DNA of 64,000 nucleotides. It comes from Lysobacter antibioticus. GTDB taxonomy: Bacteria > Pseudomonadota > Gammaproteobacteria > Xanthomonadales > Xanthomonadaceae. How positions within the stretch are numbered: the stretch's first letter is position 1; each line of letters opens with the position of its first letter. Positions 9,571 through 55,494 of this stretch are shown in pieces. The position numbers and the translations under genes were made by a program. Location: positions 62,001 to 126,000 of the forward strand of contig NZ_JMTZ01000009.1 in NCBI RefSeq assembly GCF_000731095.1. Direction: 5' to 3'. The notes under the pieces are model-generated. The model had not been told where the DNA came from. It saw nothing but the letters and a program-made list of their open reading frames with translations, and made no database searches.

Positions 9571-9600
9571 AAAAAAGCCCAGCGCTAAGGCTGGGCTTTT
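9571..9600 (-). terminator. intrinsic terminator or attenuator before argF'
   Basis: On the minus strand AAAAGCCCAGC pairs with GCTGGGCTTTTTT, followed by more T residues: a strong rho-independent terminator. It lies about 145 bases before argF' and about 225 bases after the upstream exported-protein gene. It either ends that gene's transcript or acts as a leader terminator for the arginine genes. A second short hairpin (GACGGCG/CGCCGTC, 9626-9641) lies just upstream of it. Confidence 0.8.
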
Positions 9601-9639
9601 CGTGTGTGGTGCTTGTTACACGAACGACGGCGAGCGCCG

Positions 9640-9744
9640 TCACCCAGCTGATTGGCAGGGCAACGGTCGACGCGCGCGCGAGGTCATGCCCGCCGCCATG
9701 TAGGCAGAGGTCAGGATGTCGGCGTCGGCGTAGTTCGGGTTCAT
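9640..9744 (-). CDS. possible 34-codon small ORF upstream of terminator
   Basis: ATG at 9744 opens a 34-codon frame (begins MNPNYADADILTSAYMAAG) whose first 26 codons nearly all end in G or C, as in true genes of this genome. Its stop codon overlaps a GTG that opens another frame through the terminator. No clear ribosome-binding site is seen before the ATG. It could be a leader peptide for argF', an independent small protein, or the tail of a decayed gene. Function unknown. Confidence 0.35.
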   Translation of the reverse strand: MNPNYADADILTSAYMAAGMTSRARRPLPCQSAG

Positions 9745-9824
9745 GAGGCCGCGAATGCTCGCATGGGCAGGCCCGGGGCGCAAGCCGGCCAAGCCAGGTC
9801 AGGCCCGCTCCAGGCCGGTCGGGA

Positions 9825-10292: not shown

Positions 10293-10625
10293 CGGGCTCG
10301 CGGAGTGGGATTCGTAAACAAAGTGTAAGAGCAGTGTCCGCTCACGGCCTGAATCCCGCCTTTAGACCTTGAGCCTGCGAGCTCTCGGCGCGGTGCCGGC
10401 GCCGCTTCGGAGGCCGGAAGCCGGCCGGATTGCGCACCGGGCCCGCGCCGTCGCGCCCGAATCCTCGCCCTGCCCCTGCCCACCTGCCCACCTGCCCGCC
10501 GTTCGCACCGGCACCGCCGCGGCGAAGCGCGAAGCGGATCGGCCGCATCGCCGGCCCGGATCGTCGCGGCGCGCACCGCGAGGGTCATCGGCCGTTAGAA
10601 TGAACCGACCCCAAGCCGTATCTCC
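10293..10625. other. 333-base intergenic region before cysS
   Basis: Divergent region between the exported-protein gene and cysS. A TAGAAT hexamer at 10596-10601, 25 bases before the cysS ATG, could be its -10 element; no convincing -35 is seen at the usual distance, and no strong ribosome-binding site precedes the ATG. Apart from GC-rich stretches nothing else is recognised. Confidence 0.4.
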
Positions 10626-36797: not shown

Positions 36798-36983
36798 GTC
36801 CACACTCCCCACTGCCACGGGCCCAGGCCCGATCCGTTGATTGCCGGCCGCGGCCGAAGCCGCAACCACCGTACCCGCCTGCCTCCTGCGAGCGGCGCGA
36901 TTCCATCATGAACCCTGTCGCGGGTCCGCGCCCACCCAACTCAAACCCATCAACTCAAACCGATCAACTCGAACCGACCCGAC

Positions 36984-38804
36984 TCAAATTTCCCGCACGA
37001 TCCGGAACCCGAGCCGCCCGTTGGTGGTGTCCGCGCTGGTGCCCTGCCGCCATGCCGCGCGCGACTGCGCCGGCGAGCTCGACCAGGAACCGCCGCGCAA
37101 CACCCGCGTGCGGCAGCCCGGATTGAACCAGGCCGCGCCGTCGCGCGGTGCCCGCCGGTAGTTGTCGTGCCAGCAGTCGGCCACCCACTCGCTGACATTG
37201 CCGGCCATGTCGTGAAGGCCGAATGCATTGGGCGCATAGCTGCCGACCGGCATCGGCCCCCAGGCGCCGTCGCCGAAGCCCTGGAAGGCGTTGCGCCAAT
37301 GGCGCCGGCTCGGCGACGCGTCGAGGCTGCCGGTGAGGTTGCCGACCCGCGCCGGCGGCGAGCCGTCGCCCCAGGGATAGGCGCCCTGGCTGCCGGCGCG
37401 CAGCGCGTACTCGAACTCGGCCTCACTCGGCAGCCGATAACGCTGGCCGGTGATCGCCGACAACCATTCGACATAGGCCACCGCGTCCTTGGCGCTGACG
37501 TGCACCACCGGCAGGTTGTCGGCGGCCGGGTTGCCGGCGTAGTCGGAGCGCCAGTCGACCCCGCCGCGCCGCACCAGGTTGCCGCTGCGTTCGTCGTAGG
37601 CGGTGGAATAGCCGCGCCGCGCCGCGCGCGCCCGGTGCTTGGTCGAATTCATGAAGCGGCGGAACTCGCCGACGGTGATCTCGTAACGCGACATCGCCAC
37701 GCCGCGCTCGAAGCGGATGTTGCGGGTCGGCCGCTCGGCGTCGCTGGACCCGGCCTCGCTGGGCTCGGCGCCCATGCGGAACGCGCCGTGCGGGATCACC
37801 ACCATCGCCGGCCCGCGCCCGCCCAGGTTCATCGCATCGGTGAACACCTGGCCGGGCCGGAACAAGCCGTAATGGGTCGCCAGCTCGATGCGCTCGCGCA
37901 GCTCGGCCGCGGCCGGGTCGCCGGCCGGGGCGATCCGCAGCAAGGTCGCCAGATGCCCGCGGGCGACGTCGATGCCGCCGAACTTCGGCAGCGCGGCGAT
38001 GCCCTGGTCGCGCAGGCCGCCGATCCGCGCCCGCCGCTGCGCCGCAATGCGCCCCTGGGCGGTGGACGCCGTATCGAACTTGGGCCGGACCTGCGCCGCC
38101 GCCGCGAGCCAGCGCGCGGCGCCGGCGTAATCGTCGCGGTCGGCGGCGAGTTCGGCGCGCCGGATCAGCGCACTCTCGGCCGCGGCGATGCCCTGCAAGG
38201 CGCGCGCATCGTTCGGCCGCAGCTCCAAGGCCTCGCGGAACCGCGCCAGCGCCCCGCCCTTGCCGTTCTCGCCGACGCGGCCGGCGTTCAAGTCTTCCTC
38301 GCCCAGGCGGTTGGCCTCCTGGGCCTGGTCGGCGCGGTCGACGCGTTCCAGATAGGCCACCACCTTGCGGTGCTCGGGCGCGGCCACCCGCGCCACCGCC
38401 GCCGCCTCGTGGGCGCCGCGCAGGGACAAGGGCTCGTCGTCGATGCCTTTCAACGCCGTGTCGCCTTCGACCAGCAACAGCGCCACGGCCTTATCCAGCC
38501 CCTTGGCGAAACGGCGGTCGTCCGGTGCGTAGGCGCGCAGGGCCAGATAGATCGGTATCGCCGAATCGGCGTCGGCATGCAGCCGGCCGGCGGCCAGCGC
38601 CGCCTCGCCGCGCTTGTTCAAGTCGTCCAGGTTCTCGGCCGTGACCGCGATGACCGGCGCCCGCCACGGCGGCACCGGCGACACCGCCTGGTCGGCGCTG
38701 ATCGTCACGATCGGCGCGCGCGCGCCGCCATCCTGCGACGACGCCTTACCGCCCCGATCGGTGCATCCGACCAGCAGCCCTATCGCGGCGATGCCTGACC
38801 ACAT
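36984..38804 (-). CDS. lipoprotein with SUMF1 (FGE-like) domain
   Basis: A 606-residue lipoprotein: signal with lipobox LLVGC (Cys14), a helical TPR-like middle (about 55-310) and a C-terminal SUMF1/formylglycine-generating-like domain (about 331-606; PAMVVIPHGAFRMG, YEITVGEFRRF, GNVSEWVADCW, RVLRGGSWSSSP). SUMF1 domains in bacteria include sulfatase-modifying, ergothioneine and non-catalytic ligand-binding members. The formylglycine-type Cys pair is not apparent, so a non-catalytic role in the envelope is likely. No sulfatase is nearby. Confidence 0.82.
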   Translation of the reverse strand: MWSGIAAIGLLVGCTDRGGKASSQDGGARAPIVTISADQAVSPVPPWRAPVIAVTAENLDDLNKRGEAALAAGRLHADADSAIPIYLALRAYAPDDRRFAKGLDKAVALLLVEGDTALKGIDDEPLSLRGAHEAAAVARVAAPEHRKVVAYLERVDRADQAQEANRLGEEDLNAGRVGENGKGGALARFREALELRPNDARALQGIAAAESALIRRAELAADRDDYAGAARWLAAAAQVRPKFDTASTAQGRIAAQRRARIGGLRDQGIAALPKFGGIDVARGHLATLLRIAPAGDPAAAELRERIELATHYGLFRPGQVFTDAMNLGGRGPAMVVIPHGAFRMGAEPSEAGSSDAERPTRNIRFERGVAMSRYEITVGEFRRFMNSTKHRARAARRGYSTAYDERSGNLVRRGGVDWRSDYAGNPAADNLPVVHVSAKDAVAYVEWLSAITGQRYRLPSEAEFEYALRAGSQGAYPWGDGSPPARVGNLTGSLDASPSRRHWRNAFQGFGDGAWGPMPVGSYAPNAFGLHDMAGNVSEWVADCWHDNYRRAPRDGAAWFNPGCRTRVLRGGSWSSSPAQSRAAWRQGTSADTTNGRLGFRIVREI

Positions 38805-39065
38805 CAATGCGCGCAACCTGCAACCTCTCCGGAACCGTCTTGGCGATCGATGGGACGCAGCATATCGCTTCGACCGCGGCGCCATGTTCAGGCAATGTGG
38901 TGACCCTGCAGAGGGCGGTTCGTCCCGGGCTTCGTCTTGTCCATGGCTTGCCTGCTCTGCCCGGCCTAAGCCACCGCGCACCCGCCGCGACGCGTCGCCG
39001 CGAAAAGTAGGCTATTGTCGCCCGCCCCGGCAACCTCGACGCCGGCCACGCGAAAGAACCGAAAC

Positions 39066-40169
39066 ATGCCCGTCTGGATCAACACCCCCGCCGCGCTGCA
39101 AGCGCATTTCGAGGTCAAGCCCGAACGCATCGGGCTGGACACCGAATTCATCCGCGAACGCACCTACTGGCCGCAACTGGCCTTGGTGCAGATCGCGATC
39201 GAAAGCGCCGACGGGGACGAACCGACGATCCTGCTAGTGGATCCATTGCGCCCCGGCATCGCCGAAGCGCTGGCGCCGATCCTCGCCGACGAGGCCATCC
39301 TCAAGATCGTGCACAGCCCGAGCGAGGACCTGGTCGCCTTCAAGCACGCCTGCGGCGTGGTGCCCAAGCCGCTGTTCGACACCCAGCAGGCCGCGGCCCT
39401 GGCCGGCATCGGCAGCGGCCTGGGCTATCAGAAGCTGGTCGAACAACTGACCGGCGTGGCCCTGGCCAAGGGCGAGACCCGCTCGGACTGGATGCGCCGC
39501 CCGCTCTCGCCGTCGCAGCTCGAATACGCCGCCGACGACGTGCGCCACCTGTTCGCCATGCTCGACGCCCTCGACGGCCTGCTCGCCCCGCTCGGTCGTC
39601 GCGCCTGGCTCGACGAAGACGCCGCCCGCACCGTCTTCAACGCCGAGAACGAAGCCCCGGAACGCTGGCCGCATTTGTCCATGCGCAGCGCCCAGTTCCT
39701 CGACCTGCCCGCGCAGCGCCGCCTGGTGCGCCTGCTGCGCTGGCGCGACGCCTATGCGCGCGACAGCGACCGCCCGCGCAGTTGGATCCTCGACAACGAA
39801 CTCGCCGTCTCGATCGCGCGCCAGGTCCCGGCCGACCGCGACGCCCTGCAGCGCCAACTCGACGCCCACCCCAAGGCCCCGCGCAAACTCGGCGACGCCA
39901 TCTGGACCGCACTGAGCACCGAGCTGGCCGACGAAGACCAGACCCCCGACGCCGGCGTCGCCGAAACCCGCGACAAACAGCGCCTGCGCCAGCTGCAGGA
40001 GGCCGTGGCCACCCGCAGCGCCGCCCTCGGCCTGCCCGACGGCGTGCTCGCCTCGCGCCGCTGGCTCGAAGCCCTGCTCGACCACGGCGACTGGCCCGAC
40101 GCCCTGTCCGGCTGGCGCCGCGCCGCGCTGGAGCCAGACCTCGCCCCCTTGCTGGCCCAACAGAACTGA
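39066..40169 (+). CDS. rnd: ribonuclease D
   Basis: 3'-5' exoribonuclease that trims tRNA precursors. The 367-residue protein has the DEDD residues in LDTEFIRERTYWP (Asp, Glu), HSPSEDLVAF (Asp) and YAADDVRHL (Asp/Tyr), and a C-terminal HRDC domain (about 200-290). It lies directly upstream of tRNA-Ala, a suggestive but probably accidental neighbour. The start MPVWINT matches the family N-terminus better than the upstream in-frame ATG. Confidence 0.95.
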   Translation: MPVWINTPAALQAHFEVKPERIGLDTEFIRERTYWPQLALVQIAIESADGDEPTILLVDPLRPGIAEALAPILADEAILKIVHSPSEDLVAFKHACGVVPKPLFDTQQAAALAGIGSGLGYQKLVEQLTGVALAKGETRSDWMRRPLSPSQLEYAADDVRHLFAMLDALDGLLAPLGRRAWLDEDAARTVFNAENEAPERWPHLSMRSAQFLDLPAQRRLVRLLRWRDAYARDSDRPRSWILDNELAVSIARQVPADRDALQRQLDAHPKAPRKLGDAIWTALSTELADEDQTPDAGVAETRDKQRLRQLQEAVATRSAALGLPDGVLASRRWLEALLDHGDWPDALSGWRRAALEPDLAPLLAQQN

Positions 40170-40234
40170 GCCGAGGAACCGAGCGCAAGGACTAGCGCCC
40201 CCCAGCCCGGCCCGCTACACTCGATCCCCGAAGT

Positions 40235-40310
<76 letters not shown>

Positions 40311-40322
40311 AATCATCCAGAC

Positions 40323-42368: not shown

Positions 42369-42398
42369 CCTGCAAGAGCACTGTTGCAAGAAAACATA

Positions 42399-44465
42399 AT
42401 GAAAATTAGTTACGCACCATATCGATCATGGCTCCTAGGAGCTTCATTGGTCATGCTTGGTCGCACAAGCATGCTTTTGCCAGCAGCTATTTTGGCTAGC
42501 GCCGCGTTCGCTATTGACAACTCTAGCTTTACCATGAGTCCCGCGCTATTAGTCGCTTCCCTCCTTGGTGTCGTCCTTGCTGGCGGACTAATTGGACCGT
42601 ACCTGATTAGAATGGGTCTTTGCATCGCTCAACCGGACGCTCAAGCGGTCCTAGCTGCAGATCCCCGGCCGCCAGTAATCTATCTGCGTCCATTCAACGA
42701 GGATGGGCGTGAGCGAACACAAAACGATCTCGCTGACGACGATGATTTTGGAATTATCGCCAATCAATTTCAACATCAGTATTTGCGCTCAGCGCGATAT
42801 CTAATCAAGGCATACCTCGGGTTAGAGAATTTGACCCTTGAGCAGGAGATTTGCGCGGGATTAAGACACCTCGGACCTGTAATCGCTGTCGGGAAGCCAG
42901 GGGAATTGGTGCCGACAGCAGGTGCCGCACGAGCGTACCTTACTGAAGACTCTTGGCAGCATCAGGTTGAAGATCTACTACGTAACGCGGGAATTGTAGT
43001 TTGGCATGCGGGCATCAGCCCAGGGGCATGGTGGGAACTTGAGGAGATCGCTCGCATCGTTTCGCCAGAGAAGGTGGTATTGGTTGTCCAAAGCCCCGCT
43101 CGTCGAGCTAACGCGTACGCAGATCTCGATCGGCGCACAAGTCTTGTCCTGCCGAAAGGTCTCCCTCGTTCGGGGAACGATTTCAACTTGGTGACGTTTG
43201 ACGCAACCTGGACCCCTACGGGCCATGCATTTCAATATCACCATCCATTCCGACAATTCTTCATGGCAAGCGGACTAAATATTCGAGAAACCCTGCAATC
43301 TTTTATTACGCGACATAGCGAAGGTAAAGTGCCGCGCACTTCATCTTATAGCTTGCTCCAAGCCCGCCATCTTGGCATATGGGCTACTGCGCTTCTGGCG
43401 CCGATCATAGCGCTGATTGGCTGGAAATTTTCCTCACAGGAAATTGCTTATATTAAAAGCACTGAAGAGAACAGAGTGGCATGTGAAAGCTCCGCCGAGC
43501 AGGCGACTAGATTCATTAACTCTCCAATAGATAGGGACATATCTGCATCATCATGGGCCTCTTGGCTAAACCAGATCAAAGTTAGCTTGCAAAGTCCAGA
43601 AATGAGATCCTGTGAAGGGTTTGATTTCTCAATCATTCTCGATGAAATCTCATCGACAGCAAAGAATCAAGCAAGCATTTTGCTTCCGTCTTGGCAAACG
43701 CAATTATCGCGTGGAGCTGGAAGCTTTGAGGATGTCCGAACTGCGCTTGAAGCTGCAGGTGCCGAAATCGAGTTACTAGCCTGGAACAGCGAAGAACAAA
43801 AAATTAGGGAGGATGCTTCGCGCAACATCCTGGCTTTCTCGCTTGAGATAGAGAACGTTTTCCCGGCGAACGAAGTGCCGACGCGAGGAATGATGCCAAG
43901 CAAATCACCTGAGGAGGGAGAACACAATACCATTGATAAGATCTTGGAAGATTCCGAGCAAACCTTGCTCGAATCGGAAAAATCCATACAAAGATCTATC
44001 GAGGACAATCTGAAGAGGTCTTTGCTGCCCGAACTTCAACATCTCTTTCAGCGACACCTTGGGGATCAACTTACTTTACGAACCGAGTCCGATCTAGATG
44101 CCGATGACAATGCCTTAATTAAAATGCGATTACACCTTTCCGTTCAGCTCGTGCACGCTCCCTATGGAGAATCCTTATCGGCTTATACCAGCCTGCCCTC
44201 CTATGCTTCTCTGACGACCAACATGGTTGGGTGCAGAGCTGGCACAGACGATATCTTCATGGCGGCTACTGCTTCCGTAGAAACTCCAAGCCAAATTGAG
44301 CTAGGGTCATTCAGCGCAAAAAGAATCGAGTTTGCTCGGCGTCTGATCGATCAAGCAGCGGCGAGCATTCCTACTTCGATAGAGAATTGTTATCTCGCCA
44401 ATGTTGAAAGCGCTTCGCACCTATCCAACCACTTGTCACGCAAACGCATAGTCGACTCACAATAG
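42399..44465 (+). CDS. membrane protein with TIR-like domain
   Basis: A 688-residue protein not recognised as a named gene. Two membrane helices (about 10-38 and 48-72) are followed by a domain (about 90-235) of alternating strands and helices: PPVIYLRPFN, LGPVIAVGKPGE, AGIVVWHAGISPGAWWELEEI, KVVLVV. The segment ISPGAWWELEE recalls the S-x-x-W-x-x-x-E box of TIR domains. A third helix (324-343) leads to a long C-terminal part with coiled-coil-like stretches. The ATG at 42399 is chosen over an upstream TTG. Possibly a defence or signalling effector; unproven. Confidence 0.65.
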   Translation: MKISYAPYRSWLLGASLVMLGRTSMLLPAAILASAAFAIDNSSFTMSPALLVASLLGVVLAGGLIGPYLIRMGLCIAQPDAQAVLAADPRPPVIYLRPFNEDGRERTQNDLADDDDFGIIANQFQHQYLRSARYLIKAYLGLENLTLEQEICAGLRHLGPVIAVGKPGELVPTAGAARAYLTEDSWQHQVEDLLRNAGIVVWHAGISPGAWWELEEIARIVSPEKVVLVVQSPARRANAYADLDRRTSLVLPKGLPRSGNDFNLVTFDATWTPTGHAFQYHHPFRQFFMASGLNIRETLQSFITRHSEGKVPRTSSYSLLQARHLGIWATALLAPIIALIGWKFSSQEIAYIKSTEENRVACESSAEQATRFINSPIDRDISASSWASWLNQIKVSLQSPEMRSCEGFDFSIILDEISSTAKNQASILLPSWQTQLSRGAGSFEDVRTALEAAGAEIELLAWNSEEQKIREDASRNILAFSLEIENVFPANEVPTRGMMPSKSPEEGEHNTIDKILEDSEQTLLESEKSIQRSIEDNLKRSLLPELQHLFQRHLGDQLTLRTESDLDADDNALIKMRLHLSVQLVHAPYGESLSAYTSLPSYASLTTNMVGCRAGTDDIFMAATASVETPSQIELGSFSAKRIEFARRLIDQAAASIPTSIENCYLANVESASHLSNHLSRKRIVDSQ

Positions 44466-45099: not shown

Positions 45100-47868
45100 C
45101 TATACCAGCGTGAGCGGGCAGATCAAGCGCTCGGTCCTGCTATGGACACCTTGCTCCTGCAACGGTACCAACATCGCGCCAGATAGGCCAACCATCAAAC
45201 CCAGGTTCCCGCTGTCATGCCCCCAACCGGCGCGATAGTGATTTTTGTCGGCGACCGGCTCAAGTTGTGGCAAGACGAACCCCAGTTTGTCCGTGACCTT
45301 AGCCAAAGCAAGCCGAACCCCCGCAGTGCCATGGCACAGCGAATCATCCTCTAGCCGCCCAAACCACTCGACGCTGCGCGCGAACGCCGTGTGCACATGC
45401 TCGCGCTGCCAATCCTCTAGGTCGTCCCAAACTTTAGCCCGCGCCAGCAAGAACCCAGCAGCGCCATTGCACCAGCCCAGCGAGTACTGCGGTTCGTCCA
45501 TGCGGGTGTCCGGCCATAGGCCGATTTCGGGATTGAACAATCGGTCTTCGCGTCGCAGTGTGCGCAAGGCGAGTTGGTGCATGTTCGCGTCGCCTAGCGC
45601 TCGCGCGAGGTGGACCAGGGCGAAGGCGATGCCGCTGCCGCCGTGGGCGAAGCCGGTGACGCAGCGGTCGACGCCGTGCAGCCACCATTCTGGGCCGTCG
45701 ACGGTGTCGCGGGCGGCTTCGGTCAGACGGTCGGCGAGTCGCCGGGCGACGTCGAGCAGGCGTGGGTCTGGGTGCTGGCGATGCAGGGCCAGGGCCACCA
45801 GGGCGATGCCGGCGGCGCCGTCGATGATGTCGTGGCGCGCGGGGTCCCATTGCGGTTCGCGGGCGAGGAAGGTTTCGAGCGCGAGCGATGCGAGTTCGTG
45901 GTCGCCGCGGTCGCCGGCGGCTTCGCTCAGGCTGAGGATCAGTCCTTCCATGCCGGAGTAGGCGCCGCTGCCGAGCATGGGGCTGCGTTCGACCAGGATG
46001 CGGCGGCCGGTGGCGATCAGGCGTTCGGTCAGGGCTAGCTCTTTGGCGTCGGCGCCGTGCGCGCAGCGGCGCGACAGGAACAGCAGCAGGCCGGCGAGGC
46101 CGGTGTAGAGGTCGGGGCCCATCGGCATGATCGCGAACTCGCCGCCGGGCGTGCCGACCGGCGGGCTGTAGGTCCACAGCACGCTGCCGTCGCCCTCCCC
46201 TGGCACCGCACGCTCGGCGAGCAGGGCGGCCACGGCGTCGGCGATGTCGGTCTGTTGCAGGCGGGGGGCGTCTTCGCAACCGAGCGCGGTGGCGACATAG
46301 CTCAGTTGTCGCGCTATCCAGCGTTCGTCGGCGAAACGCGCGAGGCGTTCGCGCACTTGCTCCAGCGCCGAGCGCTCGAAGAAGCCTTCGACGTTGCCGC
46401 AGGGGCTGAGCAGGTCACGGCTGTCGAGCTGGGCTTCGAAGTACGGAATGTCGAACTGCAGCATCTGTTCGCGTTCACTGGCGTAGAGATGGCGCAGGAA
46501 CGGCTTGCTGGCTTCCTCGCGGCGCAGCTTGAGCAACAAGGCGTCGGTCTTGGCCGGGTCGGCCAGCGCCGGATGGGTGGTCTCGGCCAGGAACAGGCCG
46601 TACAGATAGGTGTGGCGCAGGATCTGGCGCGAACGCAGTGCGGCGTTGTCGCGCAGCAGGGCTTCGATTTCCTCGGCATGTTCGACCATGGCCGCGGCGG
46701 CGCGGCGATAGCCGTCGCTGAAGCCGTCGAAATGCGCGGCGAATGCGGCCGGCTCACCATCCACGCGCGGCACCGGGCTGTCGATCTGGATCGCTTCCTG
46801 CACCCGCGACAGGCGCATGGTCGCGGTCTTGGCGTCCACCGCGACCTCGCGCGACACCGGCGCGGCGACCTTGTCGCCTTGCGCAGCGCCGGAGAACACG
46901 CCTTCGCGGGTGCGGCGCAATGACACCACGCCGACCGACAGCACCGACTCGCCGAGGCGCCGGTCGAGCTCGCGCTCGGCATCGAGCAGGGGCACGCCCG
47001 ACGGTGGCTGCCGGTCGATGCGCGCGGTGTTGGTGAACAAGGCTTCAACGTCGACGAAGAACGGCTGCCCCTGCGCGTCGGTGACGATGTTCTCGAAGTG
47101 AAGGTCCGAGCCGCACAGCGCATGCGCAACCGCGGTGCAGACGCCGAGCGAACGGTAGAAGCGTTCGGCCGCCGCCCTGCCCTGGGCGCCGCCGCCACGC
47201 ACGCCGAGTTGCCAGCCGTAATGGCCTCGGTCGATCGAGGCCAACACCGCCATGTCTTCGTCGACCAGGCGCTGCAAGCGTGCGAACAGCAGGTCCAGGC
47301 CTAACCCGCGCGGTTTGTAGTACAGGCCGATGCGCTCGAAGCGATAACGGACCGTGGCACGCGCGCTGCGATGCGGATCGCCCTGGCCGAATTCGACCCG
47401 CAAGGGCGCGTCGCCGGAGTGCAAGCCGAAGGCCGCCAAGGCGGGAAGATCGTCGGTCAAATGAGCCAGGTGCTCGCCGAAGAAGTCGATGAAGCCGGCG
47501 CAGAACCACTGCGCACGCTGATACAGAAACCCGTAGCGTTCGCGCAGTTCGCGCGCCGCGTCGCCGCCGGCGATGGCCTGCACGAAGGCGACGAACACCG
47601 GGTCGCCGACCGCGGTCGGCGCCACCGCTGCGCCGTCGTGCTTCGGCGCGGCCGCGGCGTAGCGGTTGAGTTCGAACACGAACACCTTCTGGAACATCCA
47701 GCAAAGCCGTTGCATCAGATAGTCGCTGGCGCCGTCGGCGATCGGCGTGTGGAACGCCGTCGGCAAACCGCTTGCGGCGACGCAGGCGGCAACCTCGCCG
47801 CGCAAGGCCTCGGCTTCCGCGCGGCAGATCGCGGCGATGTAGTAACGATCGAAATCCAGGCTGCTCAT
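45100..47868 (-). CDS. lanM: class II lanthipeptide synthetase LanM
   Basis: A 922-residue two-domain enzyme that dehydrates Ser/Thr of a precursor and closes thioether rings with Cys. The N-terminal kinase-like dehydratase (about 1-520) has YYKPRGLGLD (Lys185), GSDLHFENIV (Asp255, His257, Asn260) and FVDVEALF (Asp273, Glu275). The C-terminal LanC-like cyclase (about 580-922) has zinc ligands LGWCNGAAG (Cys800) and LCHGTAG (Cys845, His846). All key residues are present. It is the last gene of the lanthipeptide operon, one base from the DsbA-like gene. Its 3' 450 bases look AT-richer than the rest. Confidence 0.95.
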   Translation of the reverse strand: MSSLDFDRYYIAAICRAEAEALRGEVAACVAASGLPTAFHTPIADGASDYLMQRLCWMFQKVFVFELNRYAAAAPKHDGAAVAPTAVGDPVFVAFVQAIAGGDAARELRERYGFLYQRAQWFCAGFIDFFGEHLAHLTDDLPALAAFGLHSGDAPLRVEFGQGDPHRSARATVRYRFERIGLYYKPRGLGLDLLFARLQRLVDEDMAVLASIDRGHYGWQLGVRGGGAQGRAAAERFYRSLGVCTAVAHALCGSDLHFENIVTDAQGQPFFVDVEALFTNTARIDRQPPSGVPLLDAERELDRRLGESVLSVGVVSLRRTREGVFSGAAQGDKVAAPVSREVAVDAKTATMRLSRVQEAIQIDSPVPRVDGEPAAFAAHFDGFSDGYRRAAAAMVEHAEEIEALLRDNAALRSRQILRHTYLYGLFLAETTHPALADPAKTDALLLKLRREEASKPFLRHLYASEREQMLQFDIPYFEAQLDSRDLLSPCGNVEGFFERSALEQVRERLARFADERWIARQLSYVATALGCEDAPRLQQTDIADAVAALLAERAVPGEGDGSVLWTYSPPVGTPGGEFAIMPMGPDLYTGLAGLLLFLSRRCAHGADAKELALTERLIATGRRILVERSPMLGSGAYSGMEGLILSLSEAAGDRGDHELASLALETFLAREPQWDPARHDIIDGAAGIALVALALHRQHPDPRLLDVARRLADRLTEAARDTVDGPEWWLHGVDRCVTGFAHGGSGIAFALVHLARALGDANMHQLALRTLRREDRLFNPEIGLWPDTRMDEPQYSLGWCNGAAGFLLARAKVWDDLEDWQREHVHTAFARSVEWFGRLEDDSLCHGTAGVRLALAKVTDKLGFVLPQLEPVADKNHYRAGWGHDSGNLGLMVGLSGAMLVPLQEQGVHSRTERLICPLTLV

Positions 47869-47869
47869 G

Positions 47870-48505
47870 TCATCGGGCTTCCGTGGCGGCGGCGTTCATC
47901 GCCGCCTCGTAGTGGGCGAAGGTCCAGGGTTCGCTCAGGGCGACGCGGTCGATGACCACGGTCGGCACCGAGGAAATGCCGTGGACGATGGCGCGATAGC
48001 GTTGCTGCTCGACCCGGCGGGCGATGTCGGGGCGTTGCATGCAGGCGTTGAGTTCGGCGGCTTCGAACCCCGCCGCTGGCGCAAGGCGCTGAGCCAGTTC
48101 CATGCCGACGATGCCGGCGAGGTCTTGTCCGTAGACGCGGTCGTACAAGGCCTGAACATCGCTGCCGGGGCGTTGTTGCAAACAGGTCACCGCATGCGCC
48201 AGTTCGGTCGAACCTTCACGGATCGGAAACGCCAACACCCGGATCTTGGCGCCGCCGTTGTCGACGAAGCGCGCCATCAGCCGCGGCAGCATCTCGGCAT
48301 GGAAGCGCTTGCACGCCGGGCAGCCGTAATCGGTGACCAGGACGATCTCGTGCGGCGCATCGCCGCGACCGAGCATCGGCAAGTCGTCGACCTGCATCCC
48401 CTGCAAGGGCTCGGAACGGCCCGCGGCCATCAGCACGAAGCCCAGTGATACCGCGAGCACCGCCACCAGGGCCGATGCCCCTATCCAGACCCACGGTCCC
48501 TTCAT
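47870..48505 (-). CDS. membrane-anchored DsbA-like thioredoxin
   Basis: A 211-residue protein with an N-terminal membrane helix (about 6-29), then a DsbA/DsbG-type thioredoxin domain with active site CPAC (about 62-65, in TDYGCPACKRFH) and cis-Pro segment SSVPTVVID. It would make or reshuffle disulfides on the periplasmic side. Its place between the exporter genes and lanM suggests it acts on the exported peptide or protects its Cys residues. Conserved helix and strand order support function. Confidence 0.88.
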   Translation of the reverse strand: MKGPWVWIGASALVAVLAVSLGFVLMAAGRSEPLQGMQVDDLPMLGRGDAPHEIVLVTDYGCPACKRFHAEMLPRLMARFVDNGGAKIRVLAFPIREGSTELAHAVTCLQQRPGSDVQALYDRVYGQDLAGIVGMELAQRLAPAAGFEAAELNACMQRPDIARRVEQQRYRAIVHGISSVPTVVIDRVALSEPWTFAHYEAAMNAAATEAR

Positions 48506-48514: not shown

Positions 48515-49825
48515 TCAGTGATGATGCAAACCGGCCACGGGGTCCAGGCGCGCCGCGCGCGCCGCCGGCCATACCCCGGTCGACAAACCGACCAGCAGCG
48601 CGGTGACGACCCCGAACAGACAACCCGACCAGGAAACGGTCGGCTCGCCGAAATAGCTGGAACCGGAGGTGATCGCCAGCGCCGCGGCGGCGCCCAAGAT
48701 CACGCCCAGCACGCCGCCGAAGCCGGTCAGGATCACCGCCTCCAACAGGAATTCGAGGAAGACGTTGGCGCGCGAGGCGCCGATGGCGCGCTTGATCGCG
48801 ATCTCGCGGCGGCGCGCGTTGACGCCGGACACCATGACGTTGCCGATGCCCAACGCGGCAACCGCGAACACCACCGCCATCAACAGGAACAGGCCGGCGC
48901 GCACGCTGGCCAGGGTGTCGTCGAGATAGCCGCGCAGGCGTTGCGCGGTAACGACGATGAAGTCGTCCTCGCCGCCGACGACATGGCGCTGCTTGCGCAA
49001 CTGCGACGACAAGCGCCGGCCGATGGCCTCGATGTCGTCCGCTTCGGAGAAACCGGCGTGGATCTCCAGATCGCTGAGGCTGCCGTCGGCGTCCATCGCC
49101 CGCACCAGGCCGATCGGCGCGACGACCAATCGCTCGGCATCGAAACCGAGCGCGCTGCCGGCGCCCTTGACCACGCCAACGACACGGCAGGAGCGTGCGG
49201 CTAGGTTGAGGTCGCGGCCGATCACCACAGCGCTGCCGCCCAGTTCTTCGGCGAGGCTGCGCCCGAGCAGGCATTGCCGGCCGCTGCCACGCCAGTCCTG
49301 CCGCGACGGCCAGGCGCCGGCGATCAGTTCGACCTCGCCGAGCCGGAAGTACTCGACGGTGGTGCCGTAGATCGCCGCGCTGCCCTTGCGCGCGCCCAGG
49401 GCCACCGGGTTGTTGAACGCGCCGTAGCGCAGCAGCGGCGCCACCGGCCGCTGGGCGAAGGCCGTGGCGACCACGCGCAGGTCGCGCTCGGACAAACGGT
49501 TGGCGCGGCCGAGCACCAAGGATTCGTAAGACGGATCGGAGCGCACGATCAGCACCTGCCGCCCCATCGATTCGAACGAACGCACCAGGGTGCGCGACAG
49601 GCCCTCCGACAACGACGCCACCGAGACGATGCCGGCCACGCCCAAGGCCACGCTGAGCATCGCCACCGCAGTGCGCACCGGGAAGCTACGCAACTGGCGC
49701 AAGGCCGCCTGGAAGGCTTCGCTGAGTACGAACCACGCGCCCGGCGCCGCTTCCACGGCCGATGCGGCAGCGCGCTGCGGTGCGCGCACCGAACTCGTGT
49801 CAGCGGGGCGCGTGGTCGCGTTCAT
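48515..49825 (-). CDS. FtsX-type ABC permease (MacB-like), second
   Basis: A 436-residue permease with an N-terminal membrane helix (about 47-70), a large MacB-type periplasmic domain, and three C-terminal helices. FtsX motifs are GNVMVSGVNARRREIAIKRAIG and the last WPAARAARLDP. It pairs with the other permease, ATPase and adaptor to form a MacAB-type pump or immunity exporter. The first 35 residues are polar and Ala-rich. It overlaps the other permease gene by ATGA. Confidence 0.88.
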   Translation of the reverse strand: MNATTRPADTSSVRAPQRAAASAVEAAPGAWFVLSEAFQAALRQLRSFPVRTAVAMLSVALGVAGIVSVASLSEGLSRTLVRSFESMGRQVLIVRSDPSYESLVLGRANRLSERDLRVVATAFAQRPVAPLLRYGAFNNPVALGARKGSAAIYGTTVEYFRLGEVELIAGAWPSRQDWRGSGRQCLLGRSLAEELGGSAVVIGRDLNLAARSCRVVGVVKGAGSALGFDAERLVVAPIGLVRAMDADGSLSDLEIHAGFSEADDIEAIGRRLSSQLRKQRHVVGGEDDFIVVTAQRLRGYLDDTLASVRAGLFLLMAVVFAVAALGIGNVMVSGVNARRREIAIKRAIGASRANVFLEFLLEAVILTGFGGVLGVILGAAAALAITSGSSYFGEPTVSWSGCLFGVVTALLVGLSTGVWPAARAARLDPVAGLHHH

Positions 49826-51024
49826 TCGGCGCGCAACACCCGCTTCGGGTCTTTGCGCGCGGCCTGCCACGCCGGCGCCAGCGAAAACACCAGCACCAGC
49901 GCGGTGGTCGCCAGCGCGACCAGCGCGCAGGCCTGCCCGCTCAACACCGGCGCGGAGTCCAAGCGCAACACGCCCTGGAGCAAACCGGCGGCCATGCGGC
50001 CCAGCACCAGTCCCAACGGAATCGACGCCAGGCACAGCAGCAAGGCCTCGCATAGGAACAACGCCGCGATGTCGGCGCGGGTCGCGCCGATCGCGCGGCG
50101 CAGGCCGATCTCGCCGGAACGCTCGTCGGCGCTGAGGAACATCATGTTCATCACGCCCAGGGCCGCGACCAGCGAGGCCAGCAGCGAGATCCACGCCACC
50201 GTGCGGCCTTGGCTCTCGGTCGCCGCGCGCGCACTCTGCAACAACGCCTGCTTGGCTTCGATGCGGAAGTCGTCGGCGTCGTAGCGACCGCCGTACTTGC
50301 GCAGCAGCAGCGCCTGCAGCTTCGTTCGCAATGCCTCCATGTCGACGCCCGGCGCGGCCTTGACCACCAGGCGGCCGCCGTCGTCGCCGGGCCGGACCAG
50401 GCCGCTGGCGCCGGCCAGGGGCAGGAACACCGCATCGTCGTTGGAGACGAACTTGCCCGGCTCGTCGGTCGCCGCGAGCACGCCGCCGACCGCATACCAC
50501 TGCCCGCCGATGCGCAGGAACTTGCCCAACGGCGCTTGCCCGGGAAACAAACGGCCGGCGATGCGCGCGCCGAGCACGCACCGCTTGACCGAGGCTCCGC
50601 GCCCGCTCAACGCCTGGCCCTGCCCGATCGCGACCCGGTCGATGGCGAAGTAGTCCTCGCTCACCGCCAACACCTGCGCGACCTGGCGCGTGCCCGCGCC
50701 TTCCAACAAGGTGGCCGCGCCCGACAACTCCTGCACCAGCGCCGCGCGCGCGATCCACTGCGGCATCCGCTGCATATCGTCGAGATCGCCGCGGCCGGGC
50801 ACGAAGCCGCCGCTGGCGGTGGACTGGCCGCGGATCACCAGGGTGTCGTCGCCCAGGCTCTCGAAGCGGCGGCCGAGCACCTGCACCATGCCGTCGGCGA
50901 TGCTGACCACGGTCGAATACGCCATCACCGCCAACACGATGGCGCTCGCGCACAGCAGGGTCTGGCGCGGACTGCGCGCCAGCGAGCGTGCGGCGTCCCA
51001 CAGGTTGGCCAGCCAGCGGCGCAT
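49822..51024 (-). CDS. FtsX-type ABC permease (MacB-like), first
   Basis: A 400-residue permease of the same layout as its neighbour: one N-terminal helix (about 20-42), a periplasmic domain, and three C-terminal helices with MMFLSADERSGEIGLRRAIG and the end WQAARKDPKRVLRAE. Two different permeases with one separate ATPase suggest a heterodimeric transporter, unlike fused homodimeric MacB. It lies 11 bases after the ATPase gene. Confidence 0.88.
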   Translation of the reverse strand: MRRWLANLWDAARSLARSPRQTLLCASAIVLAVMAYSTVVSIADGMVQVLGRRFESLGDDTLVIRGQSTASGGFVPGRGDLDDMQRMPQWIARAALVQELSGAATLLEGAGTRQVAQVLAVSEDYFAIDRVAIGQGQALSGRGASVKRCVLGARIAGRLFPGQAPLGKFLRIGGQWYAVGGVLAATDEPGKFVSNDDAVFLPLAGASGLVRPGDDGGRLVVKAAPGVDMEALRTKLQALLLRKYGGRYDADDFRIEAKQALLQSARAATESQGRTVAWISLLASLVAALGVMNMMFLSADERSGEIGLRRAIGATRADIAALFLCEALLLCLASIPLGLVLGRMAAGLLQGVLRLDSAPVLSGQACALVALATTALVLVFSLAPAWQAARKDPKRVLRAE

Positions 51025-51035: not shown

Positions 51036-51725
51036 TCAGGCGGCCGCGGACGCGGCGGCGTCGATCACCTGGCCGTCGCAGACCCGGATCGTGCGTTGGC
51101 AGCGTTCGGCGACTTGCGGCGCATGGGTCACCACGATCAGGGTTCGGCCCTTGGCATGGATGCGCGCGAATACGTCCAGCACCTCGTCGGAGGTCTTCGA
51201 GTCCAGGTTCCCGGTCGGCTCGTCGGCCAGGATGATCTCGGGCTCGCCGACGATGGCGCGGGCGATCGCCACGCGCTGGCGTTCGCCGCCGGACAATTCG
51301 TCGGGGCGGTGCGCGCCGCGATGGGCCATGCCGACTTCTTCCAGCGCAGCCAGGGCGCGGCGCCCGGCGGCGGCACGCGCTTCGCCGCGATAACGCAGCG
51401 GCAGCATCACGTTCTCAAGCGCCGAGCAATTGCCGAGCAGATGAAAACTCTGGAACACGAAGCCGATGGTGCGGTTGCGGAAACCCGACAGGGCCGCGTC
51501 GTCCTGGCGCTGCACCGGCGCGCCGTGGATGCGGATCTCGCCGGCGTCGGGGGTATCGAGAAAGCCGATGATGTTCAACAAAGTCGACTTGCCCGAACCC
51601 GAGGCGCCCATCACCGCGACGTACTCGTGTTGGGCCACGTGCAGGTCGACCCCGCGCAGCACCGGCACTTCGGTCGCACCGAGGCGATAACTCTTGCGGA
51701 TGCCGCTGAGCTCAACCGCGTTCAT
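51036..51725 (-). CDS. ABC transporter ATPase, MacB/LolD type
   Basis: A 229-residue ATPase with Walker A GASGSGKST, Q-loop FVFQSFHLL, signature LSGGERQRVAIARA and Walker B IILADEPTGNLDS. The ADEPTGNLD form marks the MacB/LolD/FtsE group. It powers the two FtsX-type permeases downstream. It overlaps the adaptor gene by 14 bases. In lanthipeptide loci such pumps often give self-immunity. Confidence 0.93.
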   Translation of the reverse strand: MNAVELSGIRKSYRLGATEVPVLRGVDLHVAQHEYVAVMGASGSGKSTLLNIIGFLDTPDAGEIRIHGAPVQRQDDAALSGFRNRTIGFVFQSFHLLGNCSALENVMLPLRYRGEARAAAGRRALAALEEVGMAHRGAHRPDELSGGERQRVAIARAIVGEPEIILADEPTGNLDSKTSDEVLDVFARIHAKGRTLIVVTHAPQVAERCQRTIRVCDGQVIDAAASAAA

Positions 51726-52947
51726 ACGAGATCACCCGCACCCGGGTGCCCGGTTTCAAGGACGGTTGGCCGCTCGCCGGCACCACGACCAGGTCGTCGG
51801 CATCGAGCCCGCCACGGATTTCCTGATGGGTCTCGTTGACGTCGCCCAGGCGCACGCGGCGCAGGCTGGCGACGCCGTCGCGCACCACCAACACCGCGCC
51901 GCTGGCGCCCTGCCCGGCTTCGGCACCCAGTTCGGCCGGGTCGTCGCGCAGCGCGGCGATGGGCACGGTCAACACCGGCGCGGCCTTGCGGCTGGGAAAC
52001 TCGACCCGGCAGGTCATACCGGTACGCAGGCTCGCGCGGCGGGTGTTGCGGATCTCGATCAGCACCTCATAGCTCGCCGCACCGGCTGCCGGCGCACCGG
52101 TGCCGGTGGTCGAACGCGCCGGCGCCATCGACACCGAGCGCACCGTGCCCGGCAAGGGCGTCTCGTCGAAAGCCGGCACCACCACGTTGGCGACGGCGCC
52201 GGGGCGGATCTTCCAGACGTCGTACTCGCCGAGCTTGGCGGTGGCGACCAGCACGCTGGTGTCGGCGATACGCGCGACGGTCGAGCCGCTGAAGCTCAAG
52301 GCGCTCGGCACCGCGGTTTCGCCGGCGGATACGTCGATCGACAACACCGTGCCGTCGATCGGCGAACGCAGGATGGATTTGTGCAGGCTGTCCTGCACCT
52401 CGTCGACCAAGGCGCGCTGGTTCTGGATGCGCGCATGGCCTTCGCGATAAGCCGCATCGGCCTGGCGGTACGCCGCCTCGGCCTCGTCCAGGCCTTCCTC
52501 GCTGACCAATTGCTGCTTGCGCAACGCGGTGAACCTGCGCAGCTTGGCCGCGGCCAGTTCGCGGCTGGCGCGCTTGACTTCGAGCGAAGCCATCTCGCCG
52601 TCGCGCCCGGCCTCGCGCTGGGCCAACTGCGCCTGGTACTGCTGCGAACGCAGCTTCATCAACGGCTGCCCGCGCTTGACCTCGTCGCCCTGGCGCACGT
52701 AGATCTCCTCGACCGCGCCGAGCACTTCCGAGGTCATCGCCAGCTCGTTGCGATACGACAAGGTGCCGTCGGCGAAGATCGTGGTCGGCAAGGCGTCCAA
52801 CGCCGGCTTCACGACCGCCACCGGCGCCACCGAGGCGACCGTGTTGCGCACCATCAACAAGCCGACCGCCAGCACCCCCACCGACACCGCGCCGACAGCA
52901 AATGCGAGGCGTCGCGGGCGCCGCTCACGCATAGACGGGACGTTCAT
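51712..52947 (-). CDS. MacA/HlyD-type periplasmic adaptor
   Basis: A 411-residue adaptor with an N-terminal membrane helix (about 13-33), a coiled-coil hairpin (about 95-190), and the lipoyl and beta-barrel halves (AEVLGAVEEIYVRQGDEV-type start, LRSPIDGTVLSIDV). It links the inner-membrane pump to an outer-membrane channel; no TolC gene is in the window. The first codons overlap the end of the C39 transporter gene by 23 bases (or 8, if MRERRPR is the start). Confidence 0.9.
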   Translation of the reverse strand: MNVPSMRERRPRRLAFAVGAVSVGVLAVGLLMVRNTVASVAPVAVVKPALDALPTTIFADGTLSYRNELAMTSEVLGAVEEIYVRQGDEVKRGQPLMKLRSQQYQAQLAQREAGRDGEMASLEVKRASRELAAAKLRRFTALRKQQLVSEEGLDEAEAAYRQADAAYREGHARIQNQRALVDEVQDSLHKSILRSPIDGTVLSIDVSAGETAVPSALSFSGSTVARIADTSVLVATAKLGEYDVWKIRPGAVANVVVPAFDETPLPGTVRSVSMAPARSTTGTGAPAAGAASYEVLIEIRNTRRASLRTGMTCRVEFPSRKAAPVLTVPIAALRDDPAELGAEAGQGASGAVLVVRDGVASLRRVRLGDVNETHQEIRGGLDADDLVVVPASGQPSLKPGTRVRVISYERG

Positions 52948-55054
52948 GACGTTGTCCTCCTTGCGCGATTTGGCCCAGGTCGTGGACGCGATCGCCCGGC
53001 TGGATCCATTGGGTACGGTGGGTGACGATGATCTTCATGCCCGGCCAGAGCCGCAGATGGCGCAGGATCGCGCCTTCGGTGGCGGCGTCGATATCGCTGG
53101 TGAATTCGTCCAGCAGCATGATCGGTGCGTGGCTGTACAGCAGGCGCGCCAGGGCGATGCGCTGGCACTGCCCCGACGACAGGCTCTGCCCGACCGCGAC
53201 CACCGGCGTGCGATAAGCCAGCGGCCAGGCGACGATCTCGTCGTGGATACAGGCCGCCCGCGCGCAGCGTTCGATGCGCTCGATATCGGCCTGCGGGTCG
53301 AACATCGCGATGTTCTCGGCAACGGTGCCGGCGAACAAGGCCGGATGCTGGTTGAGATAGGCCACCGAGGCCGCGGCGGCCCCGGTTCCGCCGCCGCGCT
53401 CGCCGTGCACGCGCACCTGGATGCTGCCGGCATCGGGCAAAAGCAAACCGCCGATCAACTTGAGCAAGGTGCTCTTGCCGCAGCCCGAAGGCCCGACGAT
53501 GACGTTGAGGCCGCGGTCGTCGAAGTTCGCCGACACATCCTCCAGCACCGGCGTGCCGGTGCCGAGATAGGAAAAGCCGACGCCGCTGACCGCGACCTGG
53601 CTCGGCCCGGCCCACGGCGGCGCCTGCGCATCGGCGGCGGGCGTGGCATCGTCGAGGCTCATCAGGCCCTGGATCGACTCGATACGGTCGGCATTGATCC
53701 GCACCACCACCAGTTGCATGAAGAACATCTGGATCGCACGTACCGACGGTCCGGTCCAACCGAGCAGGAAGTAGCAATAGAACGCGGCCTGGTCGGACAG
53801 GTCGATGCTCGGGAAGGCTACGAACAACAGCAACAAGGCCGCGATCGGCACGACCTTGTCCTGATAGGCGTACAAGGCCTCGAACACGGCGTTGAGTTTG
53901 CCGCGCGCCTCCAACCACTTCTGGTGCTCGCCGAAGCGGTCCATCAGCCGGTCGGCGAATACCTGCTCCTTGCGGTTGACCTTGACGTCGACCGCCATGG
54001 TCAGGGTTTCGGCCAGGGTGCTGTAATAGCCGGAATACGCCAGCACCTCGCCGCCGGTGAGGCGCAGCAGGCGCTTCCAGCACAGGATCAACACCACCGT
54101 CGACAGCAGGGTCAGGGCAAGGAACAGCAAAGCCACCGGCGCGCTCTGGAAGGCCAGCACGGCCAGGGTCGCCATCAGCACACCGGAGTCGAGAATCAGG
54201 CCGGTAATGCGCGCCGACAGGAAATCGCGCACGCCCGATACCGAGTTGACGCGCGCGATCAGGTCGCCAGCCGGCAACAGCGAGAAGATCCGCAGCGGCA
54301 GCTTCAACAGGCGGTCGACGAACCGGGTGATCAGCGATCTGTCCAAACGCAACTGGATCAACAACGACACTCGCGCGCGCATCCAGTGCGCGACCACGAA
54401 GGCGAGCGACAACACCAGCAAGCCCATGCCGAGGCCGGTCGCGCTGCCGCTGCCGCCGTAGGCCAGGAAGGTCACCGCCCGGCTCAGCAACCAGGGGAAA
54501 GAAATGGTCGTGGCCACGGTCAGCGCGATCACGCTAAGCAGGAACAGCCACAGCGACCAGTTCTCGCCCAGGAATTCCTTGAACAGCTGCCCCAGCGGCG
54601 ATATCGAGACCTGCGAGCGCGCGGTTTCGTCGCGTTCGGCGCAGATGAATACGCCGCTCCACATCGCCTCGAATTCGGCGTGGGCCATGCGGCTCTCGCC
54701 GGTGGCCGGGTCCAGCACCGCCACGGTCTTGTCGTCGACCGCGCCGACCACGACGAAATGCTCGTGGCGCAGATGCACGATGGCCGGCAAGGCGGCGTGC
54801 CGCAGCGCCTGCACGGTGCCGTCTGTGGCCCGCAGCGCCTTGGGTTTGACCCCGCACATGCGCAACACGTCGAGCATTTCCTTGGCCGACATGCCGCGCT
54901 GGCTGACCGGATAACGCGCCGCCAGCGCCAGCATCGGCATGCGCAAGCCCAGGCCCGACAGCAGCATCGAGATGCAGGCGTGGCCGCAATCGGCGGCCGA
55001 GGTCTGGCTGACGAACTTGGTTTTCGTGGTACCGCGCCGCGATGGCTTGTTCAC
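52925..55054 (-). CDS. lanT: C39 peptidase-containing lanthipeptide ABC exporter
   Basis: A 709-residue half-transporter with three parts. The C39 peptidase domain (about 10-140) has Gln17-Cys23 in QTSAADCGHACI, His99 (HEHFVVV) and Asp115 (LDPATGE). The membrane domain spans about 165-440. The ATPase has GPSGCGKST, LSSGQCQRIALAR and IMLLDEFTSDID. It cuts the leader after Gly-Gly and exports the core peptide. The GTG at 55054 is chosen because it gives the usual short lead before the Cys; the upstream frame has no good start. Confidence 0.93.
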   Translation of the reverse strand: MNKPSRRGTTKTKFVSQTSAADCGHACISMLLSGLGLRMPMLALAARYPVSQRGMSAKEMLDVLRMCGVKPKALRATDGTVQALRHAALPAIVHLRHEHFVVVGAVDDKTVAVLDPATGESRMAHAEFEAMWSGVFICAERDETARSQVSISPLGQLFKEFLGENWSLWLFLLSVIALTVATTISFPWLLSRAVTFLAYGGSGSATGLGMGLLVLSLAFVVAHWMRARVSLLIQLRLDRSLITRFVDRLLKLPLRIFSLLPAGDLIARVNSVSGVRDFLSARITGLILDSGVLMATLAVLAFQSAPVALLFLALTLLSTVVLILCWKRLLRLTGGEVLAYSGYYSTLAETLTMAVDVKVNRKEQVFADRLMDRFGEHQKWLEARGKLNAVFEALYAYQDKVVPIAALLLLFVAFPSIDLSDQAAFYCYFLLGWTGPSVRAIQMFFMQLVVVRINADRIESIQGLMSLDDATPAADAQAPPWAGPSQVAVSGVGFSYLGTGTPVLEDVSANFDDRGLNVIVGPSGCGKSTLLKLIGGLLLPDAGSIQVRVHGERGGGTGAAAASVAYLNQHPALFAGTVAENIAMFDPQADIERIERCARAACIHDEIVAWPLAYRTPVVAVGQSLSSGQCQRIALARLLYSHAPIMLLDEFTSDIDAATEGAILRHLRLWPGMKIIVTHRTQWIQPGDRVHDLGQIAQGGQRHERPVYA

Positions 55055-55263
55055 GCGCTGTCCGTCCAGGCAAGACGCCCCGATGTTGGGAAGCAGCGGA
55101 CCTTGCAAGCGGATTCCGGCAACGCTCGGGCAAGCATCGGCAGCACGCGCCCGCCGGCATACGCGACGCGCGTGTTCGCGCCCCGTCCGACGATGCGTGC
55201 ACAATCCGACGCACGACGCCTGAAGCACCGCTGCGGGATTCGCTGTAAGGGCCGTACTTGAAA

Positions 55264-55292
55264 GGAGCCGCCCGTTACCGCCAGGCGGCTCC
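55264..55292 (-). terminator. hairpin between precursor and lanT
   Basis: GGAGCCGCC pairs perfectly with GGCGGCTCC around an 11-base loop, 11 bases after the precursor stop, followed on the minus strand by only TTTC. It is probably a partial terminator or RNA stabiliser that keeps the precursor transcript in excess over the export and modification genes. Confidence 0.65.
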
Positions 55293-55302
55293 GGTTAACG
55301 GA

Positions 55303-55494
55303 TCAGCAGTGGCCGACACATACCGAGTGGCCGTTGGAACAGCCGCACTCGCCAGTGAACGAACAAAGCCAACCGCAACCGCATACCACGGGTTTGCCAC
55401 CGAACAAGGCTTCGAGATTGTCGTCCGAGAGTTCCTCGGCGAACGGCACGGCAGTCGTACTTGGATCCTGGACGAGATCGTGTTGCTGCAACAT
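55303..55494 (-). CDS. lanA: class II lanthipeptide precursor
   Basis: A 63-residue precursor. The leader (1-33) is acidic and ends ELSDDNLEALFGG, a double-glycine cleavage site. The predicted core (34-63, starting KPVVCGCGWLC and ending VCVGHC) has seven Cys and only four Ser/Thr. At most four thioether rings can form, leaving at least three Cys for disulfides or free thiols. The ATG at 55494 follows GAGGA at good spacing, which rejects a longer frame. It is first in the operon, upstream of lanT. Confidence 0.92.
   Translation of the reverse strand: MLQQHDLVQDPSTTAVPFAEELSDDNLEALFGGKPVVCGCGWLCSFTGECGCSNGHSVCVGHC

Follow-up and report, generated by a model that had tools for sequence, protein, structure and literature searches.

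How does a lanthipeptide dispose of more cysteines than its serines and threonines can bridge, and might its producer dedicate an enzyme to the remainder? Disulfides are rare in lantibiotics, and no cluster-encoded enzyme responsible for them had been identified as of 2014, according to a paper of that year (PMC4018250). The question is raised by a locus of Lysobacter antibioticus, located in a 64,000-nucleotide stretch of contig NZ_JMTZ01000009.1 (hereafter the window, within contig C9 of the 5.5-Mb genome G000), in which a lanthipeptide precursor gene (55303..55494, minus strand) heads a gene row that also encodes a class II lanthipeptide synthetase, LanM, and a DsbA-like thiol oxidoreductase. 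We consider it reasonably probable that the product is a mersacidin-like class II lanthipeptide made in two compartments and carrying two kinds of sulfur bridges. A conserved core with seven Cys and four Ser/Thr, accompanied by its own DsbA-like gene, makes the question of an enzyme-made disulfide directly testable.

A cysteine-rich core and its conserved operon

The precursor open reading frame (55494..55303, minus strand) codes for 63 residues, namely a leader (MLQQHDLVQDPSTTAVPFAEELSDDNLEALFGG) that ends in LSDDNLEALFGG and carries LEALFGG, a motif of the Gly-Gly type, and a core of 30 residues (KPVVCGCGWLCSFTGECGCSNGHSVCVGHC), the cleavage site being placed by us after Gly-Gly. While the leader is devoid of Cys, the core bears seven (positions 5, 7, 11, 17, 19, 26, and 30) together with four Ser/Thr (Ser12, Thr14, Ser20, and Ser24). 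A previous sequence-only reading of this DNA had reported the same count, which is correct on direct reading of the frame, and its corollary that at least three Cys must lie outside lanthionines stands as arithmetic. Cys5, Cys7, and Cys11 all come ahead of any Ser/Thr in the core; since this layout is found in 0.21 of shuffles and is not rare by itself, the argument for the surplus is conservation rather than layout. The precursor matched no model of Pfam or NCBIfam and no PDB sequence up to an E value of 10, and its matches among plasmids were confined to six records, all with E values of 4–9.

On the minus strand, the precursor gene is followed by genes for a C39 ABC transporter, an adaptor, an ATPase, permease 1, permease 2, the DsbA-like protein, and LanM. 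The dsbA-like gene (47870..48505, minus strand) lies directly before lanM, from which 1 nucleotide separates it. It does not adjoin the precursor gene, as had been proposed, but lies downstream of it in that row, some 6.8 kb away; the description of a membrane-anchored thioredoxin-type protein with a CPAC site at 48505..47870 agrees with our data in coordinates, motif, and N-terminal helix. This putative BdbD/DsbA-like oxidoreductase matches Thioredoxin_4 (74.1 bits) and DSBA (31.7 bits), both above cut-off, and has the active-site motif C62-P-A-C65 and a predicted N-terminal helix at residues 6–28, the predicted local distance difference test score (pLDDT) of residues 20–30 being under 50. 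Both Cys of the CxxC motif and Pro181, which we take to be the cis-Pro place, are preserved in 6/6 aligned DsbA-like proteins. Among solved structures, BdbD comes closest in sequence (E 2.3e-8 across residues 39–92), and the predicted fold retrieved a Chlamydia DsbA first and BdbD next (template-modelling scores of 0.73/0.82 for BdbD), with ScsC proteins also returned by Foldseek but ranked beneath both. The modelled thioredoxin fold with CxxC and cis-Pro is that of the DsbA/BdbD family, and oxidase activity is predicted.

Five copies of the operon were observed (the window and genomes G283, G190, G1038, and G1199), and it is present in 4/20 genomes of the genus examined. G1199 belongs to another family of the order; its operon is collinear, its LanM is 34% identical, and its core (LMAQICGCGWLCSYTGECGCSNGHSICGC) again has seven Cys and four Ser/Thr, each alignable by eye to the window core. 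Relative to the window, the precursor codons show three silent and no changed positions in G283, 14 silent and one changed in G190, and 15 silent and one changed in G1038, where, in the latter two, the single change replaces Asp by Glu and falls in the leader. The LanM proteins of G190 and G1038 are 74% identical to that of the window, and DNA similarity to these genomes spans 45,175 to approximately 55,620, with none beyond within the stretches compared; because the similarity is confined to the operon span, the operon appears to be a discrete unit found at differing genomic places. G283 additionally matches the window at 36,591–40,311 and up to 58,115, where the G283 stretch ends. At locus L148, the dsbA-like frame overlaps the longest lanM frame, and the lanM start is uncertain there.

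The association with a DsbA-like gene is specific to this locus among those examined. Within 56 LanM loci listed from 28 genomes, the genome sets being samples, a Thioredoxin_4 gene was found at most 15 kb away from six, i.e., the five operon copies and one distant cousin in G049. At the other 50 loci, no Thioredoxin_4 gene lies on the same contig nearer than 80 kb, with the proviso that some loci approach the end of their contig (to about 1.8 kb at G000:C1), where a neighbour may be unseen. At most three (one scan) or two (order sample) candidates were scored per genome, so that the LanM loci number at least 56; G138 and G179, which matched only weakly (E above 1e-6), were excluded from the list. 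A DsbA-like profile built from four members, which match by construction, was run on 56 + 21 regions and agrees with the Thioredoxin_4 survey (matches at L033, L034, L036, L120, and L148); a weak match at L078 (E 3e-4) was rejected, its 115-residue frame being judged spurious by eye. LanM-type matches were obtained in 11/369 genomes of the class sample, 12/398 of the phylum sample, and 65/398 of the order sample; the DsbA profile matched 0/7 regions from the class and phylum samples, and one of the 20 regions taken from the order sample (G1199) was the operon.

Counted on the last 30 residues, which are not true cores, Cys outnumbered Ser/Thr in 4/60 precursors, precisely the four orthologues, with the window as the fifth case, and in 0/56 non-orthologous precursors. 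These 60 precursors (52 distinct 30-residue ends) come from 54/72 LanM loci scanned, 18/72 having no usable precursor; they are the frames with a leader motif among 79 found, and the 19 dropped frames include one with more Cys than Ser/Thr (L068 7981–8142, two Cys and one Ser/Thr, no leader motif). As the codon changes in the close copies are chiefly silent, the 7:4 count is kept into another family, and the excess is confined to orthologues, the Cys surplus is more than chance.

A predicted two-compartment route and its alternatives

In the route that we propose, whose chemical steps, ring topology, transport, and target are all predictions, LanM would act first, in the reducing cytoplasm, and close as many as four thioethers, linking Ser12 to Cys17 and Thr14 to Cys19, a lipid II-type pair within C-S-x-T-x-E-C-x-C, and Ser20 and Ser24 to Cys26 and Cys30. 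The C39 transporter would cleave after Gly-Gly and pass the core to the periplasm, where the anchored DsbA/BdbD-like protein may oxidise the leftover Cys of the N-terminal CGCGWLC. The MacA/MacB-like pump would then pick up the mature product in the periplasm and deliver it to a TolC-like channel for export and probably self-protection, the probable target being the lipid II of bacterial competitors. Three being an odd number, not every leftover Cys would have a partner inside one peptide: four thioethers leave three Cys, hence one disulfide with a single free thiol, or a bond between molecules, and three thioethers, with one Ser/Thr unbridged, leave four Cys and two disulfides. A partly free thiol is thus expected if all four Ser/Thr are bridged, and fits a mixed thioether/disulfide peptide. 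The computed monoisotopic masses are 2954.15 after loss of four H2O with one S-S, 2970.14 after loss of three H2O with two S-S, and 2956.16 after loss of four H2O without S-S. The mixed lanthionine/disulfide peptide foreseen by the sequence-only reading is still the best reading and is strengthened by the comparative evidence (conservation and a locus-specific DsbA-like gene), while it continues to be a prediction; that argument had taken no account of parity, of the bovicin HJ50 dsbA as a counter-case, of the lipid II-type motif, or of the MacA/MacB-like pump.

The cousin cluster of G049 (L036, G049:C70) contains a LanM (32% identity), a C39 transporter, a DsbA-like protein with CASC, a precursor, an adaptor, and a pump of the AcrB type, a resistance-nodulation-division (RND) pump (8841–11924) occupying the position of the MacB-type pump of the window. 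Its core (WSGGYCTITCECGCTLCTSTIYSCTREVIAL) shares the C-[ST]-x-T-x-E-C-G-C segment with the window core and has six Cys vs. nine Ser/Thr. AcrB-type pumps draw their substrates from the periplasm. MacB-type pumps are held to do the same in the excerpted source (PMC5985334), and because two different periplasm-fed pump types accompany the same core gene set, a periplasmic stage is favoured. A Gram-negative pathway in which thioethers are made in the cytoplasm, an oxidase from the cluster itself makes the disulfide in the periplasm, and a periplasm-fed pump (MacB-type, or AcrB-type in the cousin) exports the product is quite possible, though we advance it tentatively.

Several points weigh against the proposed route. 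Since G049 has a DsbA-like gene with no Cys surplus, oxidoreductase and surplus are not strictly tied, which counts against the simplest hypothesis. The five operon copies reflect one ancestry, not independent events, and the DsbA-like protein was modelled with moderate confidence (pLDDT 79, six sequences). Genes for an outer-membrane channel and for DsbB are both missing from the operon; the 12 TolC-type OEP stretches and one DsbB of the window genome speak in favour of the route. The predicted lipid II motif is a near and not a full match, with Ser at its first position, and the product, its mass, and its activity are predicted from sequence alone. The dsbA beside the bovicin HJ50 cluster is reported not to be responsible for the disulfide, which forms spontaneously, clusters related to bovicin HJ50 occur without dsbA, and no enzyme was identified, as of 2014, in the clusters of other disulfide lantibiotics such as haloduracin alpha (PMC4018250). 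On the other side, TmcD, a DsbA-like protein from the TMcin cluster, is reported to form the disulfide of that peptide (PMC13252029, preprint). The neighbourhood of a dsbA-like gene alone is weak evidence, because the gene near bovicin HJ50 is reported not to be responsible while TmcD is; conservation combined with locus-specificity is better evidence.

Following the bovicin HJ50 precedent, the disulfide could form spontaneously or through housekeeping oxidases, the operon protein being instead an isomerase, a reductant, a chaperone, or a redox protection of the periplasmic intermediate. Three further Thioredoxin_4 matches outside the operon in the window genome would suit this explanation, as would the G049 cluster with its DsbA-like gene and no surplus, but we find it rather unlikely in view of a gene kept between permeases and lanM in 5/5 operon copies, found again in the rearranged G049 cluster and near none of the 50 other listed LanM loci, and coding for a CxxC and a Pro181 preserved in 6/6 aligned proteins. 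It is decidedly unlikely that LanM forms few thioethers and that the peptide is chiefly disulfide-bonded, e.g., with one or two lanthionines and two disulfides: the odd parity of seven Cys agrees with such a product, and introduced Ser/Thr may stay unmodified in variants of lacticin 3147 alpha, as far as the excerpted source goes (PMC3918158), yet 4/4 Ser/Thr are conserved into another family, as expected if they are bridged, whereas unused ones should drift.

The leftover Cys might also stay reduced and, together with His23 and His29, bind metal or react with a target, the DsbA-like protein being a bystander. The spacing CGC, CGC, and HSVCVGHC and the retrieval by Foldseek of ScsC proteins, annotated for copper sensitivity, point in this direction; however, the second His is missing in G1199, ScsC ranks below the DsbA and BdbD matches, and an oxidising periplasm with a DsbA-type protein alongside would disfavour free thiols, so that we hold this to be highly improbable. 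A silent or decayed cluster without product is barely credible: its expression is itself a prediction, but silent changes in the precursor far exceed amino-acid changes, and none of the counterpart genes matched in other genomes showed a stop. Neither a glycosyltransferase nor a radical-SAM enzyme, which would offer another use for odd Cys, was found in the eight operon proteins and nine flanking frames scanned. We hold the disulfide interpretation to be likely, though unproven, and the locus to be likely a previously unreported variant among class II lanthipeptide clusters; literature searches (lanthipeptides with Lysobacter, Xanthomonadaceae, Gram-negative, or DsbA, and core fragments) returned nothing on this cluster, which is not proof of none.

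Synthetase, transport genes, and flanks

LanM (45100..47868, minus strand) has DUF4135 and LANC_like domains, both over cut-off, scores 428.7 bits against TIGR03897 (cut-off 304), and retains C800, C845, and H846, invariant across four aligned rows. It matches LicM2 (E 1.6e-49) and CylM (1.2e-11). By LanM, the Gly-Gly leader, and the C39 transporter, the cluster is of class II, and lanthionine in the product is predicted. A plasmid search with LanM gave matches in 128 records, identity staying under 30% among the 15 that were listed, and a scan of genome contigs gave four loci, the only close relative being in Lysobacter sp. ISL-50 and the other three being Paenibacillus LanMs. The genome of the window encodes a second LanM, about 32% identical (G000:C1:1623-4181; L002, L037), with an NPAG-leader precursor containing four Cys and many Ser/Thr, on a contig without a Thioredoxin_4 match. 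Several LanM loci of the order (L049, L053, L055, L161, L152, and L164) have two related precursors apiece.

From the transporter gene through lanM, neighbouring genes either overlap or, by coordinates, leave no more than 11 nucleotides between them, which makes a single transcript likely. The precursor gene is separated from the start of the transporter gene by 248 nucleotides, which hold a strong GC-rich hairpin followed by UUUC (55264..55292, minus strand), and the 76-nucleotide region 55230–55305 folds at −30.4 kcal/mol (z −1.94; 8/200 shuffles fold equally well or better), suggestive of an attenuator or terminator. The LanT/PCAT-type transporter (52925..55054, minus strand; GTG start at 55054 picked by eye, the domain scan having used the longer frame 52925–55228) combines Peptidase_C39 (89.2 bits, cut-off 22), ABC_tran (82.5), and ABC_membrane (52). 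It matches the bacteriocin transporter 4ry2 (E 6.3e-50 across residues 14–702), second among structures to a P-glycoprotein without the C39 part, and the NCBIfam transporter models shown all score under their own cut-offs.

The adaptor of the MacA/RND-mfp type (51712..52947, minus strand) scores 150.5 bits against TIGR01730 (cut-off 94.9) and 105 against the MacA model, under its cut-off of 342. The MacB/LolD-type ATPase, a separate protein (51036..51725, minus strand; ABC_tran 110.9 bits), scores 231.3 bits with the LolD model and 223.9 with the MacB model, both beneath cut-off. Permease 1 (49822..51024) and permease 2 (48515..49825), both on the minus strand, are of the MacB/FtsX type (MacB_PCD 93.9 and 86.8 bits; FtsX 61.6 and 69.8, respectively). 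With MacB_PCD, FtsX, ABC_tran, and RND_mfp above cut-off, a MacAB-type component set is present, and the predicted pump is called MacA/MacB-like only, as the MacA and MacB equivalog models are under cut-off. Downstream of lanM lies a 693-residue frame (42384–44465, plus strand) without a Pfam match at 1e-5, and the flank common to the window and G283 encodes an FGE-sulfatase domain protein (36984–38981, minus strand).

Comparison with known systems

A by-eye alignment sets the core segment CSFTGECGC against CTLTSECIC of mersacidin (letters taken from PMC11476732), and the motif C[ST]x[ST]x[DE]C, a loose pattern picked after seeing the core, arises in 0.07% of core shuffles (0.0007). The published motif, (C)TXS/TXD/EC, is suggested in the excerpted source to be the core lipid II site, and replacement of its Glu by Ala abolished the activity of mersacidin, actagardine, haloduracin alpha, and lacticin 3147 alpha (PMC3918158). 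The first motif residue is Ser for Thr in CSFTGEC of the window and CSYTGEC of G1199, while CTITCEC of G049 fits fully. With the mersacidin ring pattern as reference, the pairs Ser12-Cys17 and Thr14-Cys19 would follow its spacing, and Cys5, Cys7, and Cys11 may then sit where other mersacidin-like peptides have their N-terminal ring. We also presume a likeness to actagardine (GWxCxxTxECG), for which the literature search found no paper with those letters. The disulfide of haloduracin alpha is N-terminal. Both haloduracin alpha and plantaricin W alpha are described as bearing a disulfide (PMC4018250, in excerpt). The locus shares a LanM and a C39 transporter with mersacidin-like class II lantibiotics (mersacidin, actagardine, haloduracin alpha, and lacticin 3147 alpha), and departs from them in its Gram-negative host, in a Ser at the place of the first Thr, in the surplus of Cys, and in an operon that includes a MacA/MacB-like set and a DsbA-like gene.

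With bovicin HJ50-like peptides it would have in common the class, a disulfide (predicted here), a lipid II-type ring, and a dsbA gene, which is near the bov cluster (PMC4018250); unlike in that system, the window has a conserved DsbA-like gene within the operon itself, and the Cys with no possible partner upstream of them are N-terminal. A bovicin HJ50-like core, with a C-terminal ring closed by a disulfide, was rejected, as the core differs on direct reading from the BovA letters (PMC11476732).

Glycocins have a glycosyltransferase where the window has LanM, and a glycocin cluster was rejected on the scan of operon proteins and flanking frames described above. According to the title of Dorenbos et al. 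2002, thiol-disulfide oxidoreductases are said to be essential for sublancin. The glycocins sublancin, glycocin F, and thg have in common with the locus a C39-type transporter and thiol-disulfide oxidoreductases, and the thg precursor also has seven Cys, as given in the excerpted source (PMC12457901). TMcin differs in being a staphylococcal membrane-embedded peptide obtained through proteolysis, disulfide, secretion, and escort steps, with no lanthionine in the excerpted account (PMC13252029). If our reading is true, the locus would specify a lipid II-type lanthipeptide of a Gram-negative soil bacterium, exported across two membranes with the lipid II of the producer spared. STII of E. coli is not lanthionine-modified. 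Its route, as excerpted, runs through Sec, DsbA, and then MacAB-TolC, and the predicted route resembles it in oxidation in the periplasm followed by MacAB export, and differs from it in that STII enters the periplasm by Sec (PMC5985334).
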